Part shown: piece by piece, positions 5,707 through 45,669 of the stretch | Layout: each line of letters opens with the position of its first letter | Position numbering within the stretch: the first letter of the stretch is position 1 | From: a virus | DNA: 45,669 nt | IMG/VR virus record: IMGVR_UViG_3300042502_001458 | Span: 1 to 45,669 of that record | Strand: one strand, 5' to 3' | Position numbers and translations under genes: made by a program | Notes under the pieces: model-generated | Told to the model about the DNA's origin: nothing | What the model saw: only the letters and a program-made list of their open reading frames with translations | Database searches by the model: none

Positions 5707-5889
5707 ATGAACTGGAACTGGAAAAATATACTCGCGCTAGCAGTTTTCGTGTTACCTATGGCGTATTGCGAAGCAATTAATGCAAAAGCATTAGCAGAAA
5801 TACGAATAGCTTGTATCTCAGCTGGAGGTGAGTGGAGAAACACATGGGGCGGTACATGCGTTTTTAACAATAAACAAAATAACAATTGA
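5707..5889 (+). CDS. Small secreted or membrane-anchored protein (60 aa)
   Basis: The N-terminus has a hydrophobic core after a basic start (NWKNILALAVFVLPMAYCEA), resembling a signal peptide. Two cysteines later in the chain (CISAGGEWRNTWGGTC) could form a disulfide in the periplasm. GGAG precedes the ATG. The stop codon overlaps the -35 of P4. No family recognised. Confidence 0.6.
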   Translation: MNWNWKNILALAVFVLPMAYCEAINAKALAEIRIACISAGGEWRNTWGGTCVFNNKQNNN

Positions 5890-5914
5890 CATCTTGTTGA
5901 ACGTATGATATAGA
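5886..5914 (+). promoter_or_regulatory. Early promoter P4 (pnuC operon)
   Basis: TTGACA (5886-5891), 17 bases, TATAGA (5909-5914). The expected start of transcription is about base 5921, exactly the first base of the hairpin element that follows. Confidence 0.8.
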
Positions 5915-5920
5915 AATAAA

Positions 5921-5966
5921 CAGAGTCCAGTGAGGACTCTGTAACAAGCAAAAGGAGTTTTTGCAC
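5921..5966 (+). promoter_or_regulatory. Two-hairpin leader element, copy 1 (candidate NAD+-linked riboswitch)
   Basis: Stem 1 is CAGAGTCC/GGACTCTG (5921-5928/5934-5941) with loop AGTGA. A linker containing TAACAA leads to stem 2, GCAAAA/TTTTGC (5948-5953/5959-5964), whose loop GGAGT holds the Shine-Dalgarno. pnuC starts three bases after stem 2. Copies 2 and 3 precede nadM-nudix and nadV with the same loops but different, compensating stems in copy 3. The position upstream of pnuC recalls the pnuC motif (NAD+-II riboswitch). I could not test the match. Confidence 0.75.
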
Positions 5967-6653
5967 ATGACTAAAAAATATATTTTTGAATCGCTTAGCA
6001 TCGCCGTATTTCTTACGGCGCTTAGTTATGTGATTGGCTTATACTTGGGTTGGATTACCGAACTTAACTGGCTTGAAGTCTTAGCTGTATTCACAAGTTA
6101 TAGTTGCACTTGGCTTTGCACCCGTCAAAGTCGTTGGAATTATCCAGTTGGTATCATGACAACCGCGCTATATTCTGTGTTATTTTATCAGTGGGGGATG
6201 TTAGCCCTATCTATATTTAACATTTATCTTGTGTTTAGCCTGATTTACGGCTGGTTCCGTTGGGGAAATGATAACGACACGAGACCAGTTACAACTATTC
6301 CTCTAGTTTGGTATAGTGGATACGCCGCACTTGGACTTGCAATTCTTGGGCTCTTCTTAGGTGCAAACGTAATGTTCAATCCGGAAGGAATTGGTGTGCT
6401 AAACCCAATCGATGTAGGTCTTGCCGTAGCTAGTGGTATTGCTCAGTTTATGCTTGACAACAAAAAGATTGAGACTTGGACAGTTTGGGCAGGTATTAAC
6501 ATTGTATCTATTCCATTCTTCTTGCATAGTGGTCTAACACTAGTTGCTTTTCAGTACGTATTTTTCCTCATCAATACTTTCATTGCCCGTAGAATGTGGA
6601 AGCATAGTATGCACAACAAATTCTATTCAAATGACCATGGTGCTGTAATATGA
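5967..6653 (+). CDS. pnuC: Nicotinamide riboside transporter PnuC
   Basis: The product has about seven hydrophobic segments and the PnuC hallmarks: the WITELNWLEVLAVFTSYS region, then QSRWNYPVGI, then SLIYGWFRWG. PnuC carries nicotinamide riboside across the inner membrane; a kinase traps it by phosphorylation. ATG 5967 (not TTG 5961) is used, nine bases after GGAG in the hairpin loop, matching copy 2. It overlaps the NadR-like gene by ATGA, the partner that would phosphorylate its cargo. Confidence 0.92.
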   Translation: MTKKYIFESLSIAVFLTALSYVIGLYLGWITELNWLEVLAVFTSYSCTWLCTRQSRWNYPVGIMTTALYSVLFYQWGMLALSIFNIYLVFSLIYGWFRWGNDNDTRPVTTIPLVWYSGYAALGLAILGLFLGANVMFNPEGIGVLNPIDVGLAVASGIAQFMLDNKKIETWTVWAGINIVSIPFFLHSGLTLVAFQYVFFLINTFIARRMWKHSMHNKFYSNDHGAVI

Positions 6654-7696
6654 TAAAAGTAATCACACTTATGACTGCTTTGGTTCCTACAATTGGACAT
6701 AAAGCTCTAGTTGAATTTTGTCGGCAATTAGCTTACATTAAAGGTGGTGAAGCTCATATTATTGTTGGTACTCAACCAAACGAACCCTTTATTCGAGAAC
6801 GAATTGAAGCTTTTATCAATGCGTTCCCGGAAACACAAGAGTTCAACATTCACAAATATCACAAACATGCACCACAAAGTCCAGAGGAAATGCCTGAAAG
6901 TTTTTGGGAATATTGGCGTGATGTTGTCATAAGCCTTGTTGGATCAGTCGGGCATGATGATATTTTTGTTGCGAGCGAACTCTATGGTATTGACATGGCT
7001 CGTATTCTTGGTTGTAAATTCATGCCATTTAATAGATATAGAGATATGTTGAATATTAAAGGCACTGCTGTTCGCAAAGACTTGCTAACACGATTTGCAG
7101 ATATTATGCCAGAATTTCAACCATATATTCGTAAGACTGTAACGCTCTTCGGACAGGAAAGCTGTGGAAAAACCACTATGGCTAAACGTCTTGCACGAGA
7201 CATGAACGGCACATTTGTTCCAGAATGGGCTCGTGAATATCTTGAAACTGTTGGTGTTGAAACAACCGACGATCGTATGTATGATATTGTGCACGGACAA
7301 GCAGCACTTCAAGGCGCTGCTGCAGGCGTTCAGAACAGGCCGTGGATTTTCCAAGACACCGACCTTTTAAGTACCATCGGTTACTATCATATCTATGGTG
7401 GTGCTATCCGTCAGCCAAAGGATCTACAAGATTGCCAATCGCTATTTGATCGCAGAAAATCGGATATGTATATTGTAATGAATGATCGCATTCCATTTGA
7501 AGAAGATCAACTACGCTATGGTGGTGACAAGCGCGAAAGCAGCAAACAGTTTTGGATCGATCTACTTGAAAAAAACAATTGTAAGTACTACGTTGTAAAA
7601 GAAACTGATCATGAAAAACAATTTGAAGAGATTCGAGTGTTTTTGCTTGAATGGTTTCACGAAGAAACTAGAATCATAAGCGAATATGAAAGATAA
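6650..7696 (+). CDS. nadR: NadR-like NMN adenylyltransferase / nicotinamide riboside kinase
   Basis: Two domains are visible. The N-terminal ~160 residues are nucleotidyltransferase-like (ALVPTIGHKALVEFC, IVGTQPNEP, NIKGTAVRKD); the first histidine of HxGH is threonine (TIGH), so adenylyl transfer may be weak. The second half is a P-loop ribosylnicotinamide kinase: Walker A FGQESCGKTT, WAREYLE, DTDLLSTIGYY. With PnuC, with which it is translationally coupled, it converts imported nicotinamide riboside to NMN. No DNA-binding domain as in enterobacterial NadR is present. Confidence 0.9.
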   Translation: MIKVITLMTALVPTIGHKALVEFCRQLAYIKGGEAHIIVGTQPNEPFIRERIEAFINAFPETQEFNIHKYHKHAPQSPEEMPESFWEYWRDVVISLVGSVGHDDIFVASELYGIDMARILGCKFMPFNRYRDMLNIKGTAVRKDLLTRFADIMPEFQPYIRKTVTLFGQESCGKTTMAKRLARDMNGTFVPEWAREYLETVGVETTDDRMYDIVHGQAALQGAAAGVQNRPWIFQDTDLLSTIGYYHIYGGAIRQPKDLQDCQSLFDRRKSDMYIVMNDRIPFEEDQLRYGGDKRESSKQFWIDLLEKNNCKYYVVKETDHEKQFEEIRVFLLEWFHEETRIISEYER

Positions 7697-7736
7697 GTAA
7701 AATAAATGTCATATTGATGTCGAAAGGGAATCACAA

Positions 7737-7880
7737 ATGGCCAAAAGGATCCTGATTGGTAACCACTTCTATCGCACTCGTCGTGGAAAGTTGGTTCAAA
7801 TCCCTGAGGAATGGGTGGGGCAAACGGTCCATCCACAGACTATCCGCAAAAGAAAATCTAAGAAAAAGGGCTACAAATAA
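7737..7880 (+). CDS. Small very basic protein (47 aa)
   Basis: ATG 7737 follows GAAAGGGA, and the frame ends at TAA 7878-7880 just before P5. The chain is strongly basic at the C-terminus (TIRKRKSKKKGYK), suggesting nucleic-acid or membrane binding. It lies between the two NAD+ operons. Family unknown. Confidence 0.6.
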   Translation: MAKRILIGNHFYRTRRGKLVQIPEEWVGQTVHPQTIRKRKSKKKGYK

Positions 7881-7888
7881 GATAGTGA

Positions 7889-7917
7889 TTGACATTTTCT
7901 TCATTATATGGTATAAA
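7889..7917 (+). promoter_or_regulatory. Early promoter P5 (nadM operon)
   Basis: TTGACA (7889-7894), 17 bases, TATAAA (7912-7917). Transcription should start about base 7924, the first base of the hairpin element, just as with P4. Confidence 0.82.
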
Positions 7918-7923
7918 TAAATT

Positions 7924-7968
7924 GAGTCCAGTGAGGACTCTAATAATAAGCAAAAGGAGTTTTTGCAC
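7924..7968 (+). promoter_or_regulatory. Two-hairpin leader element, copy 2 (candidate NAD+-linked riboswitch)
   Basis: Stem 1 GAGTCC/GGACTC (7924-7929/7935-7940) has loop AGTGA. The linker TAATAATAA leads to stem 2 GCAAAA/TTTTGC (7950-7955/7961-7966) with loop GGAGT. The GTG start of nadM-nudix is nine bases after GGAG, as in copy 1. Folding would hide the ribosome binding site, so an OFF switch when stem 2 is stabilised is the simplest model. Confidence 0.75.
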
Positions 7969-9012
7969 GTGAGAGATGCTTTAGTTTTCATCGGACGTTT
8001 CCAGCCCTTTCATAATGGGCACCGAGCGGTAATCGAAACCGCGCTTAAGCAAGCAAAAGAAGTAGTCGTTGTAGTCGGCTCTAGTTTTGCTGCTCGCAAT
8101 ATTCGAAACCCATTTACATTCGAAGAACGTAAGGCAATGATCGAAGCGGTATTCCCAGATGATCGGATTAAGATTGTTCCTGTCTCTGACTACCCATATG
8201 ACGATAACAAGTGGGTCAATGCGATCCAGAAGATCGTTGACCATACGGTTCCCTTGGCAAAAGATGTCGGACTGATTGGTCATTCCAAGGATAGCACCTC
8301 CTACTACCTAGAGATCTTTCCTCGCTGGAAGAATCATGTAGAAGTTGCTGATGTTTCTGGTATCGACGCAACTAATATTCGCAAGATGATGTTCGATACT
8401 GACATGCTAACATGTGCTGTTAGCAATGTTGAAAAAATTATGAATATGATGCCGGTTGATGCGTATAATGCAATGTGCAGAACAATTCTGTATCTCGGTC
8501 GCTCAGATGGTCCTTGGGAAACTCTTTGTTCAGAATACCAGATGGTTAAGAAGTATAAAGAAGCTTGGAAAGCTGCGCCGTTCCCTCCAACGTTTATGAC
8601 TGTCGATGCGGTAGTAGTTCAATCTGGTCATCTTCTTCTCGTGAAGCGGGGTGATATGCCCGGTAAAGGTCTCTTTGCTCTTCCCGGTGGTTTCCTTAAT
8701 CAAGATGAAACGATGCTAAATGGCGCCATTCGTGAGTTGAAGGAAGAAACCAAGATCAAGGTTCCGGTTCCTGTTCTCAAAGGATCGATCAAAGGTTCTA
8801 AAACCTTCGATGCGCCAAACCGTTCTGCTCGTGGTCGCACCATCACTCAGGCATTCTTCATTGATCTCGGCTTCGGCGATTTACCCAAGGTGAAAGGCTC
8901 TGACGATGCTGAGGAAGCATTTTGGATTCCATTCAATCAAGTGAAACAGGAGAAAATGTTTGAAGACCATGCCCATATCGTTTCACACTTTTTAGGCATT
9001 AGTTGGGAGTAG
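7969..9012 (+). CDS. nadM: Bifunctional NMN adenylyltransferase / Nudix hydrolase (NadM-Nudix)
   Basis: The N-terminal domain makes NAD+ from NMN and ATP. It has GRFQPFHNGH (HxGH, residues 15-18), NPFTFEERKAMI and the SGIDATNIRKMM motif. The C-terminal domain is a Nudix hydrolase with box GGFLNQDE...RELKEET (about 240-262), which in this fusion family acts on ADP-ribose. The start is GTG 7969, fixed by the hairpin-borne GGAG. Together with NadV it forms the nicotinamide-to-NAD+ route known as NARP2 in phages. Confidence 0.93.
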   Translation: MRDALVFIGRFQPFHNGHRAVIETALKQAKEVVVVVGSSFAARNIRNPFTFEERKAMIEAVFPDDRIKIVPVSDYPYDDNKWVNAIQKIVDHTVPLAKDVGLIGHSKDSTSYYLEIFPRWKNHVEVADVSGIDATNIRKMMFDTDMLTCAVSNVEKIMNMMPVDAYNAMCRTILYLGRSDGPWETLCSEYQMVKKYKEAWKAAPFPPTFMTVDAVVVQSGHLLLVKRGDMPGKGLFALPGGFLNQDETMLNGAIRELKEETKIKVPVPVLKGSIKGSKTFDAPNRSARGRTITQAFFIDLGFGDLPKVKGSDDAEEAFWIPFNQVKQEKMFEDHAHIVSHFLGISWE

Positions 9013-9020
9013 AATAAATT

Positions 9021-9308
9021 ATGAAAGTTATCAAAGATGGTAAACGCGGCCCAGGATGGGTGCGTAAATATATCTGTAATGGGCGGCACAATTCTGGTAA
9101 AGGGTGTGGTGCAACACTCTTAGTAACAAAGGAAGATCTTAGATATTTTCCCGGAGTTTACTCAGAAAGTTGGGGAGCAAAAGATCCTGCCGTATGTTTT
9201 AAATGCATCGCGTGCTCGAGCATTACTGATATTCCTAAGGATGAATGGCCTAATGACTACCAATCACTAGAACCATTTACTCATGAATGGTACAAGTCCT
9301 CTCAGTGA
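9021..9308 (+). CDS. Zinc-ribbon-like hypothetical protein (95 aa)
   Basis: Cysteines in YICNGRH...GCGAT and VCFKCIACSS suggest a zinc-binding ribbon. It lies between nadM-nudix and nadV in the same transcript, eight bases after the former. Its stop codon is part of the AGTGA loop of leader element copy 3, so ribosomes ending here would disturb that hairpin. Function unknown. Confidence 0.7.
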   Translation: MKVIKDGKRGPGWVRKYICNGRHNSGKGCGATLLVTKEDLRYFPGVYSESWGAKDPAVCFKCIACSSITDIPKDEWPNDYQSLEPFTHEWYKSSQ

Positions 9309-9338
9309 GAGAGGCACTAACAATAGAGGAGTTCTATT
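9298..9338 (+). promoter_or_regulatory. Two-hairpin leader element, copy 3 (before nadV)
   Basis: Stem 1 is CCTCTC/GAGAGG (9298-9303/9309-9314) with loop AGTGA. The linker CACTAAC leads to stem 2 AATAGA/TCTATT (9322-9327/9333-9338) with loop GGAGT. Loops equal those of copies 1 and 2, while both stems differ and still pair. This covariation is strong evidence for a selected RNA structure. The copy is intergenic inside an operon, so it can only act on translation or mRNA stability of nadV. Confidence 0.75.
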
Positions 9339-10790
9339 TTGAAAACTATACTACATCTACTTACAAGCATCATTCGAACTGACAGCTACAAATTATCGCA
9401 GTACGTTCAGTATCCAAAGGGTACCACTCATATTAGCTCATACATTGAAGCGCGAGGTGGAGAGCCAGAATCTGTATTCTTTGGTCTTCAGGCGTTTATG
9501 AAAGACTATATGACTACGCCAATCACTTCAAATGACGTCGACCGCGCTGAAAGAATTGTTCTTGCTCACGGATTACCGTTTAACCGTGAAGGATGGGATA
9601 TCATAGTTGATGAATACGATGGTATGCTTCCCGTTGAAATTAAAGCTGTTCCAGAAGGAACTGTTATGGGTACGAGCAACGTACAGGTTCAGGTGGTCAA
9701 CACTGATCCTCGCCTATTTTGGCTAACTTCATACCTTGAAACGGCAATGCTACGAGGTGTTTGGTATCCCTCGACTGTTGCAACAAAGTCGCGTAAGATG
9801 AAAAAACTCATTGCAAAGGCTCTTCACAAAACCTCAGATATTCCAGTCGAAGATCAAATTAACTTTAAGCTCCATGACTTTGGTGCGCGAGGTGCTTCTT
9901 CTACTGAAACTGCGGTGCTTGGAGGAATGGCTCATCTCGTTAACTTTATGGGTACTGACACCTTTGAAGCGCTTACAGGTGTTATGGAATACTACAACAC
10001 ATACGATGTAGTTGGGTTCTCTATTCCAGCATCTGAGCATTCAACGATTACTTCATGGGGTCGCGAAAACGAAGTTGTAGCATTTGAGAATATGATCGAT
10101 AAATTCGCTGATGAAGGCGAGATCTATGCATGCGTATCAGATAGTTATGACATCTATGCAGCTACTCGTGATCTGTGGGGTGATAAGCTAAAGGACAAGA
10201 TCATCGCAGCAGGAGGAACTCTTGTTGTACGACCAGATAGCGGTGATCCTCTTACGATGCCTATCGAAGTCATTGAAATTCTTATGGAAAAGTTTGGTTT
10301 CACTGTGAACACCAAGGGCTTTAAGGTTCTTCCTCCTTATATTCGAGTGATTCAAGGTGATGGCATCAATGAGACGAGTCTTCCAATCATCATTCAAAAT
10401 ATGATTGACAAGGGATTCTCACTTGATAACCTTGCCTTTGGTATGGGAGGAGGTCTCCTGCAAGCCTGGAACCGTGACACCTTGAAGTACGCAATGAAGG
10501 CTTCGGCCCGGCGGGATGAAACGGGCGTCTGGCATGATGTGTTCAAAGATCCAATCACCGATCATGGGAAAATCTCGAAGAAAGGTCGCCTTGGTCTTGT
10601 ATACGAATGTGGTCTTGGATCGTGTGGATACCGTACCGTTCCAGAAGATGTGGCTAATAAAAAGGGCAACGTCCTTCGAACAGTATATCGTAATGGAACA
10701 ATCTTCATAGAAGATACGTTCGATTATATTCGATTGAGGGCGAAGCTTCATGAGCACGAATATATTGACAATATCACAGATAGGTATTAA
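9339..10790 (+). CDS. nadV: Nicotinamide phosphoribosyltransferase NadV
   Basis: The 483-residue product joins nicotinamide to PRPP to give NMN. NAMPT signatures are present: TDSYKLSQYVQYP, SSYIEARGG, FGLQAFMKDY, FKLHDFGARGASS, GFSIPASEHST, VVRPDSGDP and FGMGGGLLQ. Its length is as usual for the family. TTG 9339 directly follows stem 2 of the leader element and is the only start that keeps the short N-terminus. It completes the two-step NadV-NadM salvage route. Confidence 0.95.
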   Translation: MKTILHLLTSIIRTDSYKLSQYVQYPKGTTHISSYIEARGGEPESVFFGLQAFMKDYMTTPITSNDVDRAERIVLAHGLPFNREGWDIIVDEYDGMLPVEIKAVPEGTVMGTSNVQVQVVNTDPRLFWLTSYLETAMLRGVWYPSTVATKSRKMKKLIAKALHKTSDIPVEDQINFKLHDFGARGASSTETAVLGGMAHLVNFMGTDTFEALTGVMEYYNTYDVVGFSIPASEHSTITSWGRENEVVAFENMIDKFADEGEIYACVSDSYDIYAATRDLWGDKLKDKIIAAGGTLVVRPDSGDPLTMPIEVIEILMEKFGFTVNTKGFKVLPPYIRVIQGDGINETSLPIIIQNMIDKGFSLDNLAFGMGGGLLQAWNRDTLKYAMKASARRDETGVWHDVFKDPITDHGKISKKGRLGLVYECGLGSCGYRTVPEDVANKKGNVLRTVYRNGTIFIEDTFDYIRLRAKLHEHEYIDNITDRY

Positions 10791-45476: not shown

Positions 45477-45669
45477 AGCACCAGCAACGTCTTGGGCGAT
45501 TTGGGCATGGCAGGCATACAAGGACGGTCGGCTTGTCGATGCTCCGGCCCTTCCCGCCGTGCAGCCCGACGCCGCTGCGATACGGGAAGCGGCGCTGGTA
45601 AAGGCGCTGGACGCGGCATTTCCAATCGTTCGCAAAGCATCTGTCGTGGCTAAAATGGACGCCGTGAAC
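45469..45669 (+). CDS. GC-rich hypothetical protein, 3'-truncated by the window edge
   Basis: The frame from ATG 45469 is open to the window end (67 codons): MSEAPATSWAIWAWQAYKDG, then an alanine-rich helix. The ATG overlaps the previous gene by eight bases. It belongs to the same cassette. No family can be assigned. Confidence 0.6.
   Translation, partial: MSEAPATSWAIWAWQAYKDGRLVDAPALPAVQPDAAAIREAALVKALDAAFPIVRKASVVAKMDAVN

Follow-up and report, generated by a model that had tools for sequence, protein, structure and literature searches.

How a virus that carries genes for the supply of nicotinamide adenine dinucleotide (NAD+) governs their expression is the question raised by IMG/VR virus record IMGVR_UViG_3300042502_001458, analysed here from position 1 to position 45,669; this whole stretch of 45,669 bases is referred to as the window. 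Three RNA elements of about 43 nt, each composed of two hairpins, cover the ribosome-binding sites of pnuC, nadM-nudix and nadV in the window. An initial annotation of this DNA had placed two-hairpin elements upstream of these three genes and had read the GGAG of the second loop as the ribosome-binding site. All three were found where it had put them, and the presence of the Shine–Dalgarno sequence (SD) in loop 2 was confirmed. The hairpins, the promoters that precede copies 1 and 2 and the scores against the covariance model described below were as follows.

5886..5914, + strand: sigma-70-like promoter upstream of copy 1 (TTGACA, 17 nt, TATAGA), read from the sequence, with +1 near 5921
5920..5942, + strand: copy 1, hairpin 1, 9 bp, loop AGTGA at 5929-5933; folding and stem-loop scan, covariance model match of 44.9 bits
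5948..5964, + strand: copy 1, hairpin 2, 6 bp, loop GGAGT (the SD) at 5954-5958; folding and stem-loop scan
7889..7917, + strand: promoter upstream of copy 2 (TTGACA, 17 nt, TATAAA), including TATAAATA; read from the sequence
7924..7940, + strand: copy 2, hairpin 1, 6 bp, loop AGTGA at 7930-7934; folding and stem-loop scan, 50.9 bits together with hairpin 2
7950..7966, + strand: copy 2, hairpin 2, 6 bp, loop GGAGT (the SD) at 7956-7960; folding and stem-loop scan
9298..9314, + strand: copy 3, hairpin 1, 6 bp, loop AGTGA at 9304-9308, with a stem different from those of copies 1 and 2; folding and stem-loop scan, 40.6 bits together with hairpin 2
9322..9338, + strand: copy 3, hairpin 2, 6 bp, loop GGAGT (the SD) at 9328-9332; folding and stem-loop scan

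Minimum-energy RNA folding reproduced exactly these hairpins (z -4.6, -2.4 and -1.8 for copies 1, 2 and 3, respectively), and elsewhere in the window the stem-loop scan found neither loop on any stem of at least 6 bp. Copies 1 and 2 are almost identical, and covariation within the window comes from copy 3 alone. Its stems, as the annotation had noted, differ from the others and still pair, and the distinct copies found in relatives gave strong covariation. The annotation's statement that copies 1 and 2 start at the predicted +1 of their promoters agrees with the sequence: in each promoter a perfect TTGACA is separated by 17 nt from TATAGA (copy 1) or TATAAA (copy 2), which puts +1 at about 5921 and 7924. 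These promoters were found by reading and were unlisted by the promoter scan, which demands T at the last -10 position. The string TATAAATA at 7912-7919, directly 5' of copy 2, is identical to a T4-type late promoter core, and it also occurs 5' of nadM elements in several relatives.

Viral contigs were gathered by protein searches with nadM, nadV and pnuC. A stem-and-loop script detected the same architecture upstream of these genes in relatives, with very different stem sequences and with AGTGA, AGAGA, ATAGA, AAAGA or AGCGA as loop 1. A first MAFFT alignment (A1) was discarded for gaps within stem 1 and an ungapped subset (A2) was taken instead. The covariance model built from the eleven ungapped copies of A2 was searched against 75 sources and, after refinement with 62 copies, against 86 sources, yielding 121 matches at E up to 0.02 that represent 118 distinct copies. 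The initial annotation had proposed such a search of phage and bacterial genomes and had tied its claim to the presence of further covarying copies beside NAD+ genes; many were found, the distinct copies lying in phage contigs, in cultured phages and at one Thalassospira locus, and the claim survives.

The alignment of the 118 copies was fitted to the model. Paired cells amounted to 97.1%, against 56.6% in shuffles, and double changes to 584 cells against 157; the covariation score was 0.997, compared with 0.192 for shuffled alignments and at most 0.116 with the partners slid. Changes on both sides were observed at every pair of helix 1 and at five of the six pairs of helix 2. The unfitted, ungapped A2, used as a control, gave an identical RNAalifold structure and the same covariation excess. 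When weighted mutual information was calculated for all column pairs, ten true helix pairs topped the ranking, followed by signals that couple the second position of loop 1 to the pair that closes it (G-AUAGA-C or C-AGNGA-G).

Loop 1 is A-(U/G/A)-N-G-A, with positions 1, 4 and 5 (A, G, A) invariant; the annotation's invariant loop AGTGA holds for the three window copies, not for the family. Loop 2 is GGAGU, the SD itself, with GGA invariant and a closing A-U pair in 118/118 copies. The linker between the hairpins is A-rich and variable, and the first G of GGAG mostly lies 10-14 nt from the start codon. Hairpin 2 is weak (median -3.0 kcal/mol), which fits a bistable switch.

The element is specific to NAD genes. 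In 121/121 accepted matches it precedes nadM, nadV, pnuC, nadE or members of three recurring small unknown phage families. Genes were assigned by script for 119 of these matches (nadV 56, nadM 53, pnuC 3, phrog_33851 3, phrog_12218 2, phrog_1843 1 and nadE 1); the other two precede one more pnuC, identified with Pfam, and a truncated protein judged by eye to be related to the phrog_1843 one. The nadM and nadV targets and the carriage by phages suggested by the annotation were borne out in many phages; nadE, which encodes NAD synthase, was an additional target, in Thalassospira. Because the loci were partly fetched by NAD genes and patterns, specificity is judged more fairly from the whole-record scans of the first set. 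In the records behind 33 loci, all 37 matches at E < 1e-3 were located within NAD gene clusters, and at E up to 1 a match was present in 18 of the 33. A second set, 26 contigs each retrieved for the copy it contained, yielded 40 matches with E no higher than 0.1. Gene-blind scanning of 2.9 million viral contigs with a DNA pattern located 42 sites where each stem has at least 5 bp, 41 of which precede nadM, nadV or relatives of phrog_33851 or phrog_1843, as judged from their products, while one does not. A looser pattern, ATAGAS...AAAGGAGTTTT, returned mostly noise among the matches listed and was replaced by the tighter one. Full-strength sites numbered 183 against 0.67 expected from a Markov model of the same loci, redundant loci being included and the set being partly fetched by pattern.

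Members of the three small families were observed as follows. At L008:5229-5270 the element stands before a 213-aa phrog_1843 gene of unknown function (motif 'GWHSDGF'), and L246 has the same family by eye. Proteins of about 120 aa of phrog_33851 (motif GEDPNC.LGGHH) follow the element at L013:2362-2405, L202 and L311, and in L013 the gene adjoins pnuC. At L376:1501-1545 it lies 5' of the gene for a 108-aa phrog_12218 protein, with nadM a few hundred bases further downstream. These data suggest an NAD-linked role for phrog_1843 and phrog_33851.

Among cultured phages, clear matches were obtained in DSS3P8, Synechococcus B23, Phaeobacter MD18 and Rhodobacter RcXuper, so that the hosts range over Ruegeria, Phaeobacter, Rhodobacter and Synechococcus; LucasX and BUCT-ZZ01 have divergent yet recognisable copies. 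In the jumbo phages Salmonella Munch, Erwinia SNUABM_12 and Xanthomonas XaC1, at least one NAD gene is preceded by the same layout, with GNNGTA as loop 1. Their hairpin 1 hexaloops (L236, L244 and L418 for SNUABM_12, XaC1 and Munch) are GATGTA, GTTGTA or GAAGTA, and these elements are a possible sister class. Hairpin 2 alone, with GGAG in its loop, is found in BUCT608, where it precedes both nadM and nadV, and in Miro, where it precedes nadV. Of the cultured phages examined, Lacusarx, Bajun, phiM12, S13 and Cp1R7A-A1 do not have the element.

A pattern scan of bacterial genome contigs gave three matches, of which one, in Thalassospira xianhensis, was structured. This locus (L319:4098-7031, L417:995-3144) comprises nadM-nudix, the element, nadE and then pncB-like and pncA-like genes, assigned by eye as nicotinate phosphoribosyltransferase and nicotinamidase; NadV is absent from this genome. 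The element was found in none of the 28 other genomes among the 29 of the genus scanned. A covariance model scan of 399 Thalassospira relatives gave no match, with strict filters that scored few candidates and missed even the known copy. Since the neighbouring genes include some reading like DNA methylases and 28 congeners are without the element, the locus is probably mobile.

The element is very probably an NAD-specific translational control RNA. Repression, its direction and the ligand are what we infer. The NAD+ supply genes of phages would be controlled in translation as one regulon by widespread short cis-acting mRNA elements, in which the U-turn-like loop A(U/G/A)NGA of hairpin 1, on a stem of arbitrary sequence, would be the recognition site. 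It would be followed by a flexible A-rich linker and by the weak hairpin 2, whose loop GGAGU is the SD and lies a few bases 5' of the start codon. When NAD+ is sufficient, a signal read through loop 1, and probably loop 2 too, would stabilise hairpin 2 and keep the 30S subunit from binding; when NAD+ runs short, hairpin 2 would open and the transporter and enzymes would be made. The signal would most likely be a metabolite bound directly, NAD+ in the first place and then nicotinamide, nicotinamide mononucleotide (NMN) or nicotinamide riboside (NR). NAD+ or nicotinamide appears likeliest because the element occurs in the amidated (nadV) as well as in the deamidated (nadE) route. This explanation as a whole, a translational OFF switch of an NAD+ regulon with an SD block by hairpin 2 and direct binding of a metabolite, comes close to an even chance in our estimation, and direct sensing by the element, taken by itself, is plausible at a little under even.

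The comparison of six element-bearing genomes bears on the sensor. Only NadM and NadV were common to all six at BLASTP E<1e-3, a comparison that includes fragmentary genomes and would miss proteins that are short or very divergent. NadV as universal regulator is ruled out by its absence from the element-bearing Thalassospira. With NadM and NadV the sole proteins common to the six and NadV missing from Thalassospira, direct metabolite sensing is slightly favoured. The remaining candidates are the metabolite directly, NadM as a moonlighting regulator and a very conserved host factor. Several observations weigh against direct sensing. The conserved unpaired core is only about 10 nt, small for an aptamer that discriminates NAD+. 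Mutual information over the 118 copies gave no covariation or Watson–Crick contact between the hairpins; a pseudoknot or kissing interaction is therefore unsupported and no folded pocket is predicted. In limited searches the element is almost absent from bacterial chromosomes, unlike most riboswitches. To these are added the near-universal presence of NadM in element carriers, by which an RNA-binding NadM stays a candidate, and the resemblance of the GNNGTA loop of jumbo phages to the co-divergence of an operator and its protein.

The latter two points lead to the strongest alternative, in which the element is a translational operator recognised by a protein: NadM-Nudix, or a host factor that binds RNA and is very conserved, would attach to the hairpin with loop 1 and lock hairpin 2 over the SD, in feedback of the kind known for T4 gp43, gp32, RegA and ribosomal proteins. 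Conservation of a 5-nt loop on a short hairpin whose stem sequence is free is a typical feature of protein operators, the second position of the loop is coupled to nothing but its closing pair, and NadM was detected in the Thalassospira locus and, at E up to 0.01, in 14 of the 15 contigs tested, in one of these only weakly. On the other hand, the phage NadM has just two enzyme domains in Pfam and occurs also in phages without the element, the six genomes share no third protein, and a host factor would need conservation from alphaproteobacteria to cyanobacteria. Such an operator is a credible alternative of somewhat lower probability, direct sensing being ranked slightly above it. The nearest protein models are the autogenous operators of T4 and RB69 (gp43, gp32 and RegA; PMC3014915, PMC535899), in which an mRNA structure of the phage at the SD is likewise recognised to block translation. 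Those operators bind known replication proteins or RegA, while the element targets NAD+ genes only and no shared phage regulator was found.

A general device for translation or RNA stability, consisting of a 5' stabilising hairpin with a structured SD or of a nuclease site of the RegB type and specific neither to a metabolite nor to the pathway, is unlikely. Some copies start at a likely +1, hairpin 2 occurs alone in BUCT608 and Miro, and T4 RegB cleaves GGAG. However, such a device would occur elsewhere too, whereas whole-genome scans place the element in NAD gene clusters only; the three invariant bases of loop 1 would be needless for stability alone, and the nadV copies are often located mid-operon. 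RegB is the subject of PMC9409239 and is also covered in the review PMC3014915.

DNA operators (inverted repeats) for an NAD-responsive repressor such as NrtR, NiaR or NadR are very improbable: as DNA the hairpins form palindromes, and genes of this kind are typically controlled by such repressors, but the reading is contradicted by the covariation pattern, in which stems vary freely with pairing kept whereas a DNA-binding protein needs a conserved arm sequence, and by the location of the sites, which occupy the sense strand at the SD and often lie within operons, downstream of any promoter. Chance hairpins or recent duplication, suggested by the near identity of window copies 1 and 2, can practically be dismissed, being refuted by the excess of full-strength matches over expectation and by the divergence of the stems across copies and genomes.

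The NAD+ switch proposed here was also compared with known riboswitches. As in riboswitches generally, a conserved, covarying 5' leader structure is located at the expression platform of metabolically linked genes. No relevant match to Rfam was obtained for the window and eleven relatives at the gathering threshold or at E up to 10, inclusion of the NAD+-II model in Rfam not having been checked. NAD+-II (pnuC motif), first found in Streptococcus pnuC leaders, is a pseudoknot with P1, P1a and a long-range PK that uses the SD (Panchapakesan et al. 2021, PMC7749635; structures in PMC10085692). The element is like it in its position at the SD of pnuC, the translational OFF control proposed and the NAD+ pathway, but it consists of two separate hairpins with the SD in a hairpin loop and also targets nadM, nadV and nadE, in phages. 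A conserved upstream strand pairing with the SD, as in the NAD+-II pseudoknot, was not found among the 118 copies (exact CTCC in 5), the SD being flanked by a covarying local stem. The kinship with NAD+-II suspected by the annotation is not supported, for want of an Rfam match, of an SD-pairing strand and of covariation between the hairpins, and because of a different helix order.

NAD+-I (nadA motif) shares with the element a two-part build and translational OFF control of NAD+ genes, but it is restricted to Acidobacteria (PMC7749635) and its two domains, arranged in tandem, resemble each other (PMC10085692), while the element matches no Rfam family. Guanidine-II (mini-ykkC) is the nearest in layout, with two small stem-loops, short conserved loops and a variable linker near the SD. 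Its two like loops (ACGR) kiss via C-G pairs (PMC5486947), whereas those of the element, A(U/G/A)NGA and GGAGU, differ from each other and cannot form such pairs, and the genes are others.

The genes of the NAD+ cluster in the window are the following.

5967..6653, + strand: pnuC, nicotinamide riboside/NMN transporter (Pfam PF04973, E 3.5e-33)
6650..7696, + strand: NadR-like NMN adenylyltransferase/kinase (phrog_3462, E 8.9e-55; Pfam AAA_28)
7969..9012, + strand: nadM-nudix, bifunctional NMN adenylyltransferase / Nudix hydrolase (Pfam PF01467 and PF00293)
9339..10790, + strand: nadV, nicotinamide phosphoribosyltransferase, with a TTG start (Pfam PF04095 and PF18127)

The NadR-like gene (6650-7696) has no element of its own and its start codon overlaps the pnuC stop; it is therefore probably coupled to, and controlled through, pnuC translation. 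Upstream of nadV, the TGA stop of the open reading frame 9021-9308 sits within loop 1 of copy 3 (AGTGA), and ribosomes ending there would therefore melt hairpin 1.

Phages rebuild NAD+ against immune systems that deplete it (review PMC9503650), and the text of that review mentions neither a riboswitch nor an untranslated region. The element was not found described in the open literature searched, most subscription papers and preprints lying outside that search. The family is real, far wider than the window and apparently undescribed so far, and its regulatory class is well supported. We tentatively propose, at somewhat less than an even chance, a very small NAD+-sensing riboswitch of a new class, mainly spread by phages, whose two unlike loops, one of them the SD, would form the sensor and would tune NAD+ rebuilding against NAD+-depleting defence to need. 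Shared regulation ties the uncharacterised phage families phrog_1843, phrog_33851 and phrog_12218 to NAD+ metabolism, and the element would offer a defined, testable switch in cultured phages. Phage NAD+ synthesis would thereby be shown to be regulated by need, and the element would represent either a third class of NAD+ riboswitch or a new enzyme-RNA feedback.

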